From: Microlunatus phosphovorus NM-1
GTDB taxonomy: Bacteria; Actinomycetota; Actinomycetes; Propionibacteriales; Propionibacteriaceae
Direction of reading: 5' to 3'
NCBI RefSeq assembly: GCF_000270245.1
Contig: NC_015635.1
Location: 4,464,001 to 4,528,000, forward strand
DNA: 64,000 nt
Shown here: piece after piece, positions 3,192-55,110 of the stretch
Layout of the letters: each line of letters begins with the position of its first letter
How positions within the stretch are numbered: the first letter of the stretch is position 1
Notes under the pieces: generated by a model
The model's database searches: none
What the model saw: only the letters and a program-made list of their open reading frames with translations
What the model was told of the DNA's origin: nothing
Program-made: the position numbers and the translations under genes

Positions 3192-3215
3192 GCAGCAGCG
3201 AGTTCTCGCTGCTGC
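3192..3215. promoter_or_regulatory. perfect 11-bp inverted repeat
   Basis: GCAGCAGCGAG-TT-CTCGCTGCTGC is a perfect dyad with almost no loop, about 70 bp upstream of the nuclease start. It could be a cruciform, a transcript hairpin or an end structure of the adjoining repeats. There is no T-run, so a classical terminator is not clear. Confidence 0.45.
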
Positions 3216-3266
3216 GTGTGGAATGCGTAGCCGAACGAGCGAGCGACGACCAACACTGTCAGAGGC
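3216..3266 (+). repeat. remnant of the 3' end of the ~132-bp hairpin repeat
   Basis: GTAGCCGAACGAGCGAGCGACGACCAACACTG matches the 3' end of the hairpin repeat family (compare 54030-54062 and, inverted, 46087-46110). The hairpin core itself is absent here, so only the terminal ~45 bp remain. Confidence 0.5.
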
Positions 3267-10159: not shown

Positions 10160-10556
10160 GCGAGCTTACGAGTTCAACGGTCGCCGCTCTTCGAGCCCGG
10201 CTACTTCGTCGTCACGCGGAGACGAAGAACGCCTCTCCCCACTCCTCCTCAGCACACCGGCGGGCGATCCCAGCCGCTCGCACTCCGTTGAATGGTCGTG
10301 CTCGCTGGGACCGCCCTTCCAGCCCGGCTACTTCGTCGTCACGCGGAGAGGAAGAACGCCTCTCCCCACTCCTCCTCAGCACACCGGCGGGCGATCCCGG
10401 CCGCTCGCACTCCGTTGAATGGTCGTGCTCGCTGGGACCGCCCTTCCAGCCCGGCTACTTCGTCGTCGCGCGGAGAGGAAGAACGCCTCTCCCCACTCCT
10501 CCTCAGCACACCGGCGGGCGATCCCGGCCGCTCGCACTCCGACTACTCTCGACGTC
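10160..10556. repeat. 127-bp tandem repeat, three copies
   Basis: Three nearly identical units start around 10191, 10318 and 10445 (for example CCGGCTACTTCGTCGTC recurs at 127-bp spacing), the last one truncated just before the DUF2510 gene. Differences between copies are few, which suggests recent duplication. Each junction contains an inverted repeat, GGCGATCCCRGC ... GCTGGGACCGCC (loop ~30 bp, itself holding GCAC/GTGC). The array fills the divergent promoter region between the 9716-10156 gene and the DUF2510 gene. Open frames through it are products of the repeat, not genes. Confidence 0.9.
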
Positions 10557-30883: not shown

Positions 30884-30949
30884 CCATTGGTCTTCAGTGG
30901 CCCTGAGCCGCCAGCTCAGCCGCGTCGAGCACCGGGAGCGGTCGATGGC

Positions 30950-31510
30950 GAACCGTCTGGCGCCGCGGGGCCACGAACGATCGGCGGTCAGGCACGCCCA
31001 GCAGACGGCTTACGCCCCCGGGCCACAAACGATCGAAAGCCAAGCACAACACCCGTACGGGCTACGCCCGCGGGCCACAAACGACCAGCGATCACGCGGA
31101 CCCAGCAGACGGCTTGCGCCGCGGGGCCACGAACGATCGGCGGTCAGGCACGCCCAGCAGACGGCTCGCGCCCCCGGGCCACAAACGATCGAAAGCCAAG
31201 CACAACACCCGCACGGCTGCCGCCGGCGGGCCACAAACGACCGGCGGTCAGGCGCGCCCAGCAGACGGCTTGCGCCCCCGGGCCACAAACGATCGAAAGC
31301 CGAGCACAACACCCGTACGGCTGCCGCCGGCGGGCCACGAACGATCGGCGGTCAGGCGCGCCCAGCAGACGGCTTGCGCCCCCGGGCCACAAACGATCGA
31401 AAGCCAAGCACAACACCCGCACGGCTGCCGCCGGCGGGCCACGAACGGCCGGCGGTCGAGCGTGCCCAGAGAACGGCTTGCGCCCCCGGGCCACAAACGA
31501 CAATCAGTGC
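30950..31510. repeat. tandem array of 52/104-bp GGGCCAC repeats
   Basis: About ten GGGCCACRAACGA cores lie at close to 52-bp intervals. Two alternating versions make a 104-bp super-unit: GCAGACGGCT recurs at 31001, 31105, 31157, 31261 and 31365 (steps of 104, 52, 104 and 104). Version one continues TCGAAAGCCAAGCACAACACCC, version two TCGGCGGTCAGGC. All frames read open for long distances because the units carry few stops; these frames were rejected as genes. The array lies after the AlkZ-like gene and before the convergent ctaF. Confidence 0.9.
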
Positions 31511-31588
31511 CGCGCAGCGGGCCTTCCGGCGAGCGTCAGCGAGCCGGCTTACCCTGCGAGCGACCGAGAGCGGAGTCAGGAGCGCAGC

Positions 31589-31736
31589 GAGTGACGACTC
31601 CCGTCGCGAGCGGCCGCGCCGCGGAGCGCCCGGTTCCGTCTGGACTGAGGAGCGAGCAAACACGTTCTTCGTTTGCGAGCGACGAGGGAAGACGGAACCA
31701 ATCGGCGCGTAGTTGGCGCAGCGAGTGACGACTAGC
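31589..31736 (+). repeat. ~132-bp hairpin repeat, diverged single copy (locus A)
   Basis: Starts GAGTGACGACTCCCGTCGCGAGCGG and runs to the ctaF stop. The outer arms are GGTTCCGTCT (31632-31641) and AGACGGAACC (31690-31699), a perfect 10-bp pairing. The inner arms are GCAAAC (31656-31661) and GTTTGC (31671-31676). Both arms differ from the other copies yet still pair, which is the key covariation evidence. Confidence 0.85.
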
Positions 31737-38503: not shown

Positions 38504-38515
38504 GGGCTGTGTTTG

Positions 38516-38672
38516 TCGTCGCTCGCTGTTCGGCTGCGCTCCCAAGACTCCGTCTTCCTCCCTCACTCACAAGACGAAAAGACGTGTCTTGTTCGCTCAG
38601 TCGTCCAGACGGAGCCGTCGCTCCGCCTCACGGCCGCTCGCGACGGGATTGCTCGCTCGGGCTGAGCAGTAG
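38516..38672 (-). repeat. ~132-bp hairpin repeat, single copy, inverted (locus B)
   Basis: The complement of the family sequence. The outer arms are GACTCCGTCT (38546-38555) and AGACGGAGCC (38607-38616); the inner arms are ACAAGAC (38569-38575) and GTCTTGT (38586-38592). It starts 13 bp after the DUF3043 stop and is antisense to both flanking genes. Confidence 0.85.
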
Positions 38673-45089: not shown

Positions 45090-45260
45090 GCTGTGAGCAC
45101 GTGGCCCCAGGCCCGGCACCCGGGATCGTCCGTGGCCCGCGGGCGCGAAACGTGCCTGGGCACCGCGTACCGGCAGATCATCTATGGCCCCGTGGCGCAA
45201 GACAACCCAAGGCCGGGCGCGGACCGCGTACGTACGTGGCCCGCCGGCGCGAAACGAATC
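45090..45260 (-). repeat. 52-bp GGGCCAC repeat, three to four units, inverted
   Basis: On the plus strand GTGGCCC or a variant occurs at 45100, 45131, 45184 and 45236, the last three 52-53 bp apart; GCGAAACG and ACCGCGTAC, shared with the 54.8-kb copy, lie between. It fills the spacer between the 44702-45046 gene and the PTH2 gene. Confidence 0.7.
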
Positions 45261-45306: not shown

Positions 45307-46098
45307 TCAAGCCGGAGCGATAGCGATCACCGTGATGGTGCCGGGGTCGACCTCGGTGAACCCGGCGTCCCGGACCGCGAGCAATCGGTGTTCCCGCCAG
45401 GCTGACGCAGGGTCGGCCAGCAGCGCACAGTACTGAGCGAACGAGGTCTGGTCGAGCGTGTCGACATGCGCCGGGCAGCCGGCCGCGATCCATCGGCTCA
45501 ACGCATCACTCGCCCCATCGGCCATCAGCGCGGCGGCGATCATCCCCGCATGCCCGGTCTGAGCCATCGCCTTGCCCATGGTCATCGAGAGGGAGGGCGG
45601 CAGTAGCAGACGCAGCACTCGATCCGGCTCGGTGGGCGCGGGTCCCGGGTCATCTCGGTCGACATCGGTGCCGCCAACCTGAAGCTTGCTGACCCGCTTG
45701 TCCAGCTGCGACACCAGACCGGGGACCAGCGCCCGTACCTGTGTGTCGGCGCTGGTCAGTGTCAGTCCGGGGATATCGGCGGTCGCTTCCCATTGCGCGC
45801 CACGCCCGCGCCGGGTGACCTTGCGGATGTGGCCCGCGCAGTACGCGGCCACCGCGTCGAACCATTCGCCGCCCGGCTCGGCCCGCGGGTCAAGACAGAT
45901 GGCTGCCGCTCCAGAAGCGGCCAGTTCCAGGGCGCGGTGCCAGGACGGCGGTCGGTCTCGCTCCATCCGGATCAGCAGTTGCAAGGCCCGGATGTCCTCC
46001 GCCGCTTCCTCGCGATTCTGCTCCACTTCGGCGGCGTTCAGCCCAAGCCAATAGCCGTACCGCGCCCGCAGCGGCGCCAAGGCTGTGTTGGTCGTCAC
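45307..46098 (-). CDS. PTH2-family peptidyl-tRNA hydrolase-like protein
   Basis: 263 residues from GTG 46098. The C-terminal ~125 residues are a PTH2 domain: SMTMGKAMAQTGHAGMIAAAL (usual GKMAAQCGHA) and the ending DAGFTEVDPGTITVIAIAP. The N-terminal half is Arg/Glu-rich with WHRALELAASGAAAICL and no fold I recognise. PTH2 enzymes release peptides from tRNA; this long actinobacterial form is uncharacterised. The putative start VTTNTALAPL lies inside the end of a hairpin repeat, so the 5' end may have been altered by repeat insertion. Confidence 0.75.
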   Translation of the reverse strand: MTTNTALAPLRARYGYWLGLNAAEVEQNREEAAEDIRALQLLIRMERDRPPSWHRALELAASGAAAICLDPRAEPGGEWFDAVAAYCAGHIRKVTRRGRGAQWEATADIPGLTLTSADTQVRALVPGLVSQLDKRVSKLQVGGTDVDRDDPGPAPTEPDRVLRLLLPPSLSMTMGKAMAQTGHAGMIAAALMADGASDALSRWIAAGCPAHVDTLDQTSFAQYCALLADPASAWREHRLLAVRDAGFTEVDPGTITVIAIAPA

Positions 46099-46247
46099 TC
46101 GCTGTTCACTCCGCTCCACAGACTCCGTCTTCCCTCGTCATTCGCAGACGATAAAGCGTTGTCTGCTCACTCCTCAGTCCAGACGGAGCCGTCGCTACGC
46201 TCACGGCCGCTCGCGACGGGAGACCTTGGTCCTCACTCGCTGTTCAC
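46088..46247 (-). repeat. ~132-bp hairpin repeat, single copy, inverted (locus C)
   Basis: The outer arms are GACTCCGTCT (46121-46130) and AGACGGAGCC (46181-46190), with one G-T type pair. The inner arms are GCAGAC (46144-46149) and GTCTGC (46161-46166), a different pairing from other copies. It fills the spacer between rocD and the PTH2 gene in the same sense as both. Its 3' end supplies GTGACGACC, the likely start of the PTH2 gene. Confidence 0.85.
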
Positions 46248-49034: not shown

Positions 49035-49317
49035 CCGTCGCGAGTGACGACCCCGTTGCGAGCGGCCGTGAGGCGGAGCGAGGGCTCCGTCTGGACTGAC
49101 GAGGGAGCAAGACACGTTCTTCGTCTTGCGAGCGAGGAAGGAAGACGGAGTCCTGGGAGCGCAGCCGAACAGCGAGCGACGAGGACACAGCGAGCGGCCG
49201 TGAGGCGGAGCGACGGCTCCGTCTGGACGACTGAGCGAACAAGACACGCCTTTCGTCTTGCGAGTGAAGGAGGAAGACGGAGTCCTGGGAGCGCAGCCGA
49301 ACAGCGAGCGACGAAGG
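49035..49317 (+). repeat. ~132-bp hairpin repeat, two tandem copies (locus D)
   Basis: GCGAGCGGCC recurs at 49058 and 49190 (132 bp). Copy 1 has outer arms GGCTCCGTCT (49083-49092) / AGACGGAGTC (49143-49152) and inner arms GCAAGAC (49107-49113) / GTCTTGC (49123-49129). Copy 2 has ACAAGAC / GTCTTGC, with one unpaired position. The array fills the space from the asnC stop to 19 bp before lpd. Confidence 0.9.
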
Positions 49318-52729: not shown

Positions 52730-53635
52730 ATCAAATACCTGTTGGCGGGCGCCTCCGGATTCCTGGGCACAGCCCTGCGGATCCGGCTGGCGCAGGAAGG
52801 ACATCACGTCGTTCGGCTGGTCCGGCGCGAGCCGGGTGTGGGGACCGAGGCCCAGTGGGACCCCCAGACCGGCTCGCTCCCGCCTCGGCTGTTCGACGAC
52901 GTCGATGCCGTCATCAACCTCTGCGGGGCCGGCATCGCGGACCGACCGCTGACCACCAGACGCAAGGCGCTTGTCCGGTCGTCACGGATCGACCCGACCC
53001 AGACGCTGGCCCGGGCGCTGGCTGAGCGGCAGGTGCAGACCGGGTCAGCGCCGGTGCTGGTGCAGGCCAGTGCCACGGGCTACTACCCGACCGACAGCAC
53101 CGACCAGCCCATGACCGAGACGAACGTGCCCGGTCAGAGCTGGATCTCCGAGTTGGTCGACGAGTGGGAAGAGGCGGCCCGGCCGGCGGCCGATGCCGGC
53201 GTACGCGTGGTGTGGACCCGGACCAGTCCGGTGTTGGATTCCTCCGGCGGGATGTTCCCGCTGATGCGGCGAGCCTGGTGGTTCGGCGCCGGCGCTCGGT
53301 TCGGTGACGGCAAGCAGCACATGCCCCTCGTTCATCTCACCGACTATCTGCGCTTCGTCCTCTGGGCGGTGGAGAATCCCACAGCCTCCGGTCCGTACAA
53401 CCTCACCCTGCCGGAACCGACAACCAACGGCGCTTTCAGCGACGAACTGGCCACTCAGCTGCGTCGGCCGCGGCTCTTCACCGTGCCCAAGGTGGTGTTG
53501 TCAACCGTGCTGGGGGACTTCGCCGAGCAACTCCTGGGCGACGCCTGGCTGGTTCCCCAGCGAGCGGTCGACCAGGGATTCGGTTTCCTCGCGCCGGATG
53601 TCCAGACTGCCGTCCGGTTCGCCCTGCGTCGCTGA
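52730..53635 (+). CDS. TIGR01777-family epimerase-like NAD(P)-binding protein
   Basis: About 301 residues. YLLAGASGFLGTAL is the Rossmann glycine motif, NLCGAGIADRPLTTRRK is the family signature, followed by SATGYYP and the C-terminal extension FGFLAPDVQTAVRFALRR. M. tuberculosis Rv2216 is the positional equivalent. The role is unknown (E. coli YfcH type; sometimes mislabelled a cell-division inhibitor). No ATG or GTG precedes the first strand: the only ordinary start is TTG at 52742, which would delete 'IKYL'. I placed the start at the in-frame ATC at 52730, just after the sucB stop. Confidence 0.85.
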   Translation: MKYLLAGASGFLGTALRIRLAQEGHHVVRLVRREPGVGTEAQWDPQTGSLPPRLFDDVDAVINLCGAGIADRPLTTRRKALVRSSRIDPTQTLARALAERQVQTGSAPVLVQASATGYYPTDSTDQPMTETNVPGQSWISELVDEWEEAARPAADAGVRVVWTRTSPVLDSSGGMFPLMRRAWWFGAGARFGDGKQHMPLVHLTDYLRFVLWAVENPTASGPYNLTLPEPTTNGAFSDELATQLRRPRLFTVPKVVLSTVLGDFAEQLLGDAWLVPQRAVDQGFGFLAPDVQTAVRFALRR

Positions 53636-53639
53636 GCAC

Positions 53640-54062
53640 GACAGCGAGTGACGACCCCGTCGCGAGCGGCCGTGAGGCGGAGCGACGGCTCCGTCTGGAC
53701 GACTGAGCGAACAAGACACGCCTTTTCGTCTTGTGAGTGAAGGAGGAAGACGGAGTCCTGGGAGCGCGGCCGAACAGCGAGTGACGACCCCGTCGCGAGC
53801 GGCCGTGAGGCGGAGCGACGGCTCCGTCTGGACGACTGAGCGAACAAGACACGCCTTTCGTCTTGTGAGTGAAGGAGGAAGACGGAGTCTTGGGAGCGCG
53901 GCCGAACAGCGAGCGACGAGGACACAGCGAGCGGCCGTGAGGCGGAGCGACGGCTCCGTCTGGACGACTGAGCGAACAAGACACGCCTTTTCGTCTTGTG
54001 AGTGAAGGAGGAAGACGGAGTCTTGGGAGCGCGGCCGAACAGCGAGTGACGACCAACACTGC
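53640..54062 (+). repeat. ~132-bp hairpin repeat, three tandem copies (locus E)
   Basis: GCGAGCGGCC recurs at 53662, 53795 and 53927. In copy 1 the outer arms are GGCTCCGTCT (53687-53696) and AGACGGAGTC (53748-53757) and the inner arms ACAAGAC (53711-53717) and GTCTTGT (53728-53734), loop ACGCCTTTTC. The array fills the entire spacer between the TIGR01777 gene and lipB. Long frames on both strands across it are repeat artefacts. Confidence 0.92.
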
Positions 54063-54819: not shown

Positions 54820-55110
54820 GCGGACGTTCTTGGCCCGGCGGCGCAAGGCGATCGGCGGCTGAGCGCGATCCGCGTACGTTTCGCGCCTGCGGGCCACAGA
54901 AGACCGCGGATCCAGCGCAAAGCCCGTACGTTTCGCGCCTGCGGGCCACAGAAGACCGCGAGCCGAGCGCAAAGCCGGTACGCCCCACGCCCCCGGGCCA
55001 CAGAAGACCGCGAGCCCGATGCGTTCGGCGCCCCGGGGCCAAGGACGTTTGCGGATCGGGCGCATGGTCGACCCGTTTCGCGCCGCCGGGCCAAAGACGC
55101 CCGACACAAG
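54820..55110 (+). repeat. 52-bp GGGCCAC repeat, about five units
   Basis: GGGCCA cores at 54891, 54943, 54995, 55036 and 55088. Steps are 52, 52, 41 and 52 bp. Units read GCGCCTGC-GGGCCACAGAAGACCGCG ... AGCGCAAAGCCCGTACG. It fills most of the spacer after lipB; no gene is seen in 54796-55249. Confidence 0.85.

Follow-up and report, generated by a model that had tools for sequence, protein, structure and literature searches.

A dispersed, covarying hairpin element with conserved GA/GA steps in Microlunatus phosphovorus and other Actinomycetes

Copies at the lipB locus and across the genome

The window analyzed here is a stretch of 64,000 nucleotides (bases 4464001-4528000) from the genome of Microlunatus phosphovorus NM-1, a single contig of 5,683,123 bases. 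Within it, a dispersed element forms a three-unit array flanked by a TIGR01777-family gene (52742-53635) on one side and by lipB (from 54079) on the other. Eight copies had been predicted in the window, and profile hits confirm all of them; the features are as follows.

53652..53789, + strand: unit 1 of the three-unit array (profile and covariance-model match)
53785..53921, + strand: unit 2 of the array, the reference unit for arm coordinates (151.6 bits)
53917..54054, + strand: unit 3 of the array, which starts GACACAGCGAGC, not CCCGTCGCGAGC
49048..49316, + strand: two-unit array (49048-49184 and 49180-49316) upstream of a dihydrolipoyl dehydrogenase gene
46090..46224, − strand: single unit (profile and model match)
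38514..38651, − strand: single unit (profile and model match)
31596..31733, + strand: single unit of the GGTTCC/GGAACC subfamily (profile match)
10418..10546, − strand: far-diverged cousin of the element (33 bits)
3212..3256, + strand: remnant of an element tail, GAGCGACGACCAACAC, directly before a damage-promoter-like motif, TGTCAGAG

The 3′ end of unit 3 on the + strand, GACGACCAACACTG, lies immediately ahead of the lipB −10 box TAGACT, and that of the unit at 31596..31733 (+) lies 4 bases from the stop of a cytochrome c oxidase subunit IV gene on the opposite strand.

In the regions of the genome examined first, an iterative profile gave 72 hits, a few being no more than short pieces, which fall into 43 arrays. 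A covariance model built from 52 own-genome copies (R1) yielded 89 matches over the whole genome (best E 4e-29), which merge into 62 arrays: 45 consist of one unit, 9 of two, 6 of three and 2 of four. Seventeen of the 62 are tandem, and some combine subfamilies (L051, L047).

Other repeats were seen along the way. The cousin at 10418-10546 (−) belongs to a hairpin class in which CTGAGGAG...CGACGAAGTAG replaces the CTGGAC...GAGGAAG core, with further sites at L053:6835-7078 and in the flanks of L078, L088 and L024. A different repeat of 52-bp period, ACGGCTTGCGCCCCCGGGCCACAAACGATCG-like, occurs as tandem arrays and dispersed copies (window 30902-31551, 54824-55103 and 45185-45248). Directly before the 5′ end of the element, the own-genome arrays at 53325, 601645, 1306145, 4025329, 4224071, 4461483 and 5448726 carry a small CGAGCGAGCGTYAGCGAGCGAG-like hairpin, a second, mosaic module.

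Anatomy and covariation of the hairpin

Laying the arms of the copies against each other reveals that the unit of 128-133 bp is one long hairpin of some 55 positions, in which stems that vary freely in sequence are separated by opposed GA/GA steps. The hairpin of the original prediction, an outer and an inner stem, is real and extends much further than was described: nearly the entire unit is enclosed between its outermost arms, CGTCGC/GYGACG. In the reference unit its parts are placed as follows.

53791..53796, + strand: left arm of the base stem P1, CGTCGC
53913..53918, + strand: right arm of P1, GCGACG
53820..53829, + strand: left arm of P3, GGCTCCGTCT (the outer stem of the original prediction)
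53880..53889, + strand: right arm of P3, AGACGGAGTC
53828..53835, + strand: 5′ side of the conserved core, CTGGACGA, a bulged G followed by GA steps
53875..53881, + strand: 3′ side of the conserved core, GAGGAAG
53844..53850, + strand: left arm of the inner stem P4, ACAAGAC
53860..53866, + strand: right arm of P4, GTCTTGT, with the loop ACGCCTTTC between the P4 arms

From the base, the CGTCGC/GYGACG stem is followed by an opposed GA/GA step, by GC/GC and by GTGAGGC opposite GCCKMAC, where GA faces TC (paired) or GA depending on the copy. Further inward come P3 (8-12 pairs, the second base of the left arm forming a G.T pair in most copies), the bulged G, and GA/GA steps alternating with one or two pairs; innermost are P4, whose arms occur in many matched versions, and the loop ACG(C/T)TY.T. 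One-pair and two-pair steps can trade places, and do so jointly on both arms, GGACTGACGA going with GAGGAAGG and GGACGACTGA with GAGGGAGG. The opposed GA/GA steps probably form sheared tandem G.A pairs. The core CTGGA...GAAG is near-invariant across four families while the flanking stems vary freely, and the apical loop aCGYTYTT is conserved within the genus. By eye, a one-sided bulge keeps a constant place; GNA-type apexes occur in copies of families f2, f3 and f20. The arm variants quoted in support of the original prediction are present in the sequence, but the copies are not all perfect: the one at 49180-49316 breaks the outermost pair of the inner stem (ACAAGAC facing GTCTTGC).

That both arms change together, so that the fold itself is selected, is supported by phylogeny-aware and alignment-free tests alike. 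Because shuffles do not keep relatedness, we simulated substitutions on a FastTree tree, in the manner of R-scape, as the null (significance at E<0.05). Significant structure pairs numbered 5/37 within the own genome (A1, 52 copies), where most pairs are too uniform for testing, 9/22 within the genus (A5, 42 sequences) and 9/22 across four families (A6, 36 sequences). Significant pairs off the structure numbered 0, 0 and 1, the last (A6 columns 27-82) lying within the GA-step region. All three are MAFFT alignments, with structures read off these very sequences. A1 holds 52 of 64 distinct own copies, 12 close duplicates having been left out by hand after L072 and hits below 60 bits. For A5, 73 rows were reduced to 56 cores by dropping nine with long inner stems, L024, and seven that lacked both motifs or were duplicates; 42 of the 56 were aligned, once 13 own cores and L075 had been set aside. 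A6 contains 36 of 40 cores (L121, L114, L118 and L137 left out).

Counts of double changes agree with these tests. In A1, 92.5% of cells are paired and double-change cells number 115 (34.9 when shuffled), with a covariation score of 0.218 as against 0.02-0.06 with partners slid; the corresponding double-change counts are 129 (32.4 shuffled) in A5, where 18 of the 22 pairs change on both sides, and 188 (66.4 shuffled) in A6. For the alignment-free test, sites were found by the core pattern alone and scored on the eight bases to either side, which had not been used in finding them, counting Watson-Crick plus G.T pairs and dropping sites within 10 bases of a locus end. Arms were paired at 90.2%, versus 55.9% with right arms shuffled among the 84 sites (sd 2.0; maximum of 1000 shuffles, 62.2%). 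These sites carry 55 distinct left and 60 distinct right arms, so the arm changes do not go back to just one or two ancestral variants. The original prediction thus withstood the refutation set for it. The view that evolution has preserved the shape of the hairpin rather than its letters is thereby supported.

In relatives the outermost stem is locus-specific, with 13 distinct left arms at 15 sites (L013, L028, L099, L103, L016 and others). Its arms are nonetheless complementary at 87.8%, versus 60.2% when shuffled, over these 15 sites of other species, which were drawn from 55 A2 matches with duplicates included and with the misparsed L089 kept in the mean. Compensatory evolution could produce such a stem, as could insertion of the element into palindromes already present or an inverted copy of host bases made during insertion.

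Two measures bear on which strand folds. G.T cells outnumber A.C cells by 142:37 (A1), 28:10 (A5), 19:10 (A6) and 56:15 (A7), and pairs in which G.T exceeds A.C outnumber the reverse by 17:5, 6:3, 7:3 and 12:3, respectively; the A7 counts lean to the R3 structure because A7 was fitted to it. Mean RNA folding energy over 65 copies is −58.9 kcal/mol for the + strand and −48.4 kcal/mol for the − strand. Without the two richest pairs the G.T:A.C counts are 64:37 (A1), 11:10 (A5), 9:10 (A6) and 34:14 (A7). As two columns carry much of the excess, the + strand is favored moderately as the folded strand, either as RNA or as single-stranded DNA, which the G.T excess would fit as well.

Placement, distribution and insertion history

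Gene positions come from a home-made codon-score caller that favors starts behind Shine-Dalgarno-like bases, not from annotation, and give a context for 61 of the 62 own arrays (the exception is in L165). Fifty-seven of the 61 are intergenic (called-gene overlap of at most 30 bases). Codirectional, convergent and divergent gaps hold 32, 20 and 9 arrays. From the remaining gaps of this DNA, counting those of 20 bases or more, 36.1, 6.2 and 18.8 would be expected by gap length or 38.0, 8.9 and 14.1 by gap number, so that convergent gaps are enriched (chi-square p = 1e-8 and 2e-4, respectively). Among codirectional arrays, both genes run in the sense of the element in 24 and antisense to it in 8 (p = 0.007). 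The 3′ end of the element is often tight against stop codons or promoters in this genome: of the 28 arrays whose downstream gene opposes the element, 8 have that gene ending precisely one base inside the element boundary, and 13 have it ending no more than 4 bases away. A TGA of the element also supplies the stop of four upstream genes that read into it.

No U-tract was seen after the hairpin in the own-genome flanks examined. The genes downstream of the arrays at 2084783 and 3950701 show a ribosome-site-like stretch alone after the element, so transcription must pass through it or start inside it. In the wider Actinomycete set, context was obtained for 77 of 84 arrays, 4 of them overlapping called genes, and the placement (30 sense, 21 antisense, p = 0.26; 15 convergent; 11 divergent) weakens a strict terminator reading. 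In Kribbella, 11 of 18 arrays (L240, L241, L244, L248, L261 and six more) end at the called start codon of a divergent gene, 6 bases inside the 5′ boundary of the element; here GGGAGG comes from the P3 arm and CATG lies in P2, so that the ribosome site may be masked by the hairpin. An effect of the replication strand was dropped, the 62 own arrays showing no clear bias (37 vs 25).

Copies in other actinobacteria, which the original prediction had proposed to look for, were found across Actinomycetes. The 9 genomes (of 57) matched by a DNA search belong to a single genus and include the own genome; R1 matched 11 of 20 genus genomes, again with the own. Model R2 matched 29 of 391 genomes of the order, 13 from the genus and 16 from two further families, and 6 of 296 of the class, and R3 matched 21 of 394 genomes of the class in 12 of 137 genera; with 10-13 candidates scored per genome under strict filters, these R2 and R3 counts are lower bounds. 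A pattern scan of an 84,980-species collection found at least 119 loci. The 80 among the matches listed are all from Actinomycetes, including Streptosporangium, Actinomadura, Kribbella, Amycolatopsis, Actinophytocola, Virgisporangium, Williamsia, Streptomyces, Nocardioides and others, and R3 matches 80/80 of these and covers 84/84 pattern sites. Head-to-head pairs (− then +) with starts approximately 140-170 bases apart were observed in L120, L121 and L127, of the same-order family f3.

The proposal that the element belongs to no named family agrees with our searches. Rfam (release 15) gave 0 matches at the gathering score in the window, and for the three-unit array below-threshold hits at E 0.82 and 4.8 only, which is chance level; a known RNA family was therefore rejected. 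A literature search, short of exhaustive, names no such element. Plasmid or phage origin was also rejected, as blastn (E≤1e-5) found no match in either collection, from which records close to the own genome are possibly absent.

Comparison within the genus shows that the element was gained by insertion in the lineage of M. phosphovorus at both lipB and uvrA. Both genes are present in 20/20 genus genomes. Upstream of lipB the element occurs in the own genome (G000) only among the 18 that are readable (L206 and L207 are cut), and in the nearest relative (LipB 84% identical) the site is empty while the −10 box, TAGACT, is unchanged. Within 330 bases upstream of uvrA, the element again occurs only in the own genome, where it directly precedes TGTCAGTG. 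Filled and empty sites at the two genes are too diverged for exact alignment, and by eye the flanks have no constant short direct repeat. A loose core regex also flags L198 (lipB), L179 (uvrA) and L376 (oxidase); by eye these have no paired arms and were not counted, and model searches gave no match in G010, the genome of L179.

The oxidase IV gene, found in 19 of 20 genus genomes, offers a shared site, compared at 19 loci of 18 genomes (L375 of G016, which is cut, was left out). The element is present there in G000, G003 and G015 (L362), and its tail alone in G005. A perfect hairpin of 13-28 bp follows the oxidase IV stop at 8 of 16 sites without the element and at 0 of 3 with it, a contrast that is suggestive, the sample being small and the difference not significant.

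Some copies stand directly before a promoter-like motif. TGTCRG[TA]G-N7-9-[TC]AnnnT follows the element at the same offset in 6 of 61 arrays, where about 0.1 would be expected from 26 motif hits in 557 kb on both strands; the test is post hoc, since the motif was noticed while reading flanks. Four more cases of motif and element tail lie outside the 61 arrays or after truncated copies. The motif resembles the PafBC-type promoter, whose consensus is given as tTGTCRgtg-8-TannnT (PMC5656591). Genes downstream of the six arrays include UvrA and RmuC (Pfam) and a DNA-3-methyladenine glycosylase match below cut-off; by eye, a near motif is also seen at an array upstream of exonuclease III. The motif precedes uvrA in 19 of 20 genus genomes by pattern, the 20th (L179) reading TGTCAGTA by eye. 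We rejected the idea that the element carries a damage promoter, because the uvrA motif is in all 20 genomes and the element in one.

Explanations and comparison with known systems

The element is a covarying, intergenic hairpin with conserved GA/GA steps, placed at gene boundaries in its own genome. Our tentative reading (probability about 0.42) is that of a non-autonomous dispersed hairpin that spreads in the genomes of Actinomycetes. Its + strand would be the one that folds, most likely at the RNA level and within untranslated transcript ends. Transcription of a neighboring gene would read through into the hairpin, which would then end, cap or insulate the transcript in the manner of a terminator or 3′ stabilizer, and an enzyme recognizing the GA core would copy the element in trans. 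We counted in favor of a role at transcript ends the covariation, the strand signal, the placement, the insertions and the hairpin contrast at the oxidase IV site, and against it the dependence of the strand signal on few columns, the lack of a U-tract, the wider placement and the small size of the oxidase IV comparison.

It is also possible, with somewhat lower probability, that the element is mobile at the DNA level, its hairpin serving, in single-stranded or extruded form, as the DNA that a transposase or recombinase recognizes and having no role for host genes. The lineage-specific insertions at lipB and uvrA, the end-to-end tandem units and mixed-subfamily arrays, the fixed offset of the 3′ end before the TGTCRG motif (6/61 arrays, ~0.1 expected), the locus-specific yet complementary outermost stem (87.8% vs 60.2%, 15 sites), the GNA-type apexes of f2, f3 and f20 and the weakness of the strand asymmetry once two columns are set aside all fit such an element. 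However, a search covering the Y1 (RAYT/IS200) transposase family (PF01797) gave 0 matches in the own genome, the control being positive in 5 of 14 genomes, and a RAYT/IS200 origin was rejected on this ground. There is no clear bias by replication strand, and the gene-sense bias of 24:8 and the convergent enrichment point to transcription.

That the element is a structured RNA with a specific task (as a protein-binding, small regulatory or self-processing RNA), dispersed as a by-product, appears unlikely. The near-invariance of CTGGA/GAAG over four families amid free flanking stems, the genus-conserved apical loop and the constant one-sided bulge seen by eye would suit it, but no Rfam family matches at the gathering score, and high, variable copy number, tandem arrays and lineage-specific insertions better fit a repeat.

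Less probable still is mobility at the RNA level, in which a structured RNA with the sequence-specific tandem-GA core would be copied to DNA in trans and enter gene ends, host sequence completing the outermost stem; if true, bacteria would have a SINE-like class of their own, found throughout Actinomycetes. The own genome has four PF00078 matches (one group II intron maturase, one RT-Cas1 fusion and two further reverse transcriptase matches), which are compatible with RNA-based spread and are not evidence for it. Two of these proteins, the RT-Cas1 fusion and the group II intron reverse transcriptase/maturase, are encoded at L378:1087-3162 and L377:733-2541.

We consider it very improbable that the element is a DNA landmark bound by a nucleoid or damage-response protein: copies do stand directly before PafBC-type promoters in 6/61 arrays by pattern, but most arrays have no motif, 0/46 flanks in relatives contain it, and at uvrA it is found in 20/20 genus genomes with the element in one. 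Long imperfect palindromes are known hot spots of template switching, yet repeated correction that matched the arms without selection or function is just as improbable, as it would erase mismatches and the GA/GA steps and bulged G are kept across families.

Returning to the reading of a spreading hairpin at transcript ends, the element may be compared with known systems. ERIC/RU-1 of Enterobacteriaceae is described as a non-autonomous, multi-copy intergenic sequence of ~127 bp with a stable long stem-loop, TA ends and TA duplications, its transfer mechanism being given as not known (PMC2759123). By analogy, the Actinomycete element is likewise an imperfect palindrome of comparable size, intergenic and present in many copies. 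It differs in its phylum, in its tandem arrays and in having stems of freely varying sequence around a near-invariant GA-step core; TA ends and TA duplications are not evident in it. REPs are palindromes of 20-40 bp with a conserved terminal tetranucleotide. Together with BIMEs and the RAYT transposase, they are described as high-copy, extragenic, mosaic and clustered (PMC2817692). The element shares these traits, but its unit is far longer, a single hairpin of 128-133 bp, in a genome without Y1 transposase.

Intrinsic terminators combine a G+C-rich hairpin with a T run. Like them, the element is a hairpin that follows stop codons and is enriched between convergent genes in its own genome; unlike them, it has no T run after it in the flanks examined, is a dispersed repeat, and contains GA/GA steps along with a conserved core. 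Integron attC sites are imperfect hairpins with unpaired bases and a variable apex at gene 3′ ends. The element shares the imperfect hairpin, unpaired bases, variable apex and gene 3′ ends, but its sites are scattered among ordinary chromosomal genes and no cassette array was seen. By analogy it would seem to behave like ERIC or BIME, and our best guess is a non-autonomous mobile hairpin. Judged by its sequence, it is set apart from known dispersed palindromes by the near-invariant GA-step core shared across families amid freely varying stems.

Classic terminators are scarce in high-GC Gram-positives. A high-copy Actinomycete family offers a testable handle on transcript ends in these bacteria and on the mobility of small hairpins without REP transposase; both questions can be addressed directly by experiment, at lipB and uvrA through their empty sites and at the oxidase gene through the site that is shared. 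At the oxidase site, L366 (G011) and L367 (G019) have perfect hairpins of 28 and 18 bp after the oxidase IV stop. The loop of the former, GAAGAACGT, is the complement of the element apical loop ACGTTCTTC, and that of the latter differs at two bases, which may connect the element with ordinary hairpins of terminator type.
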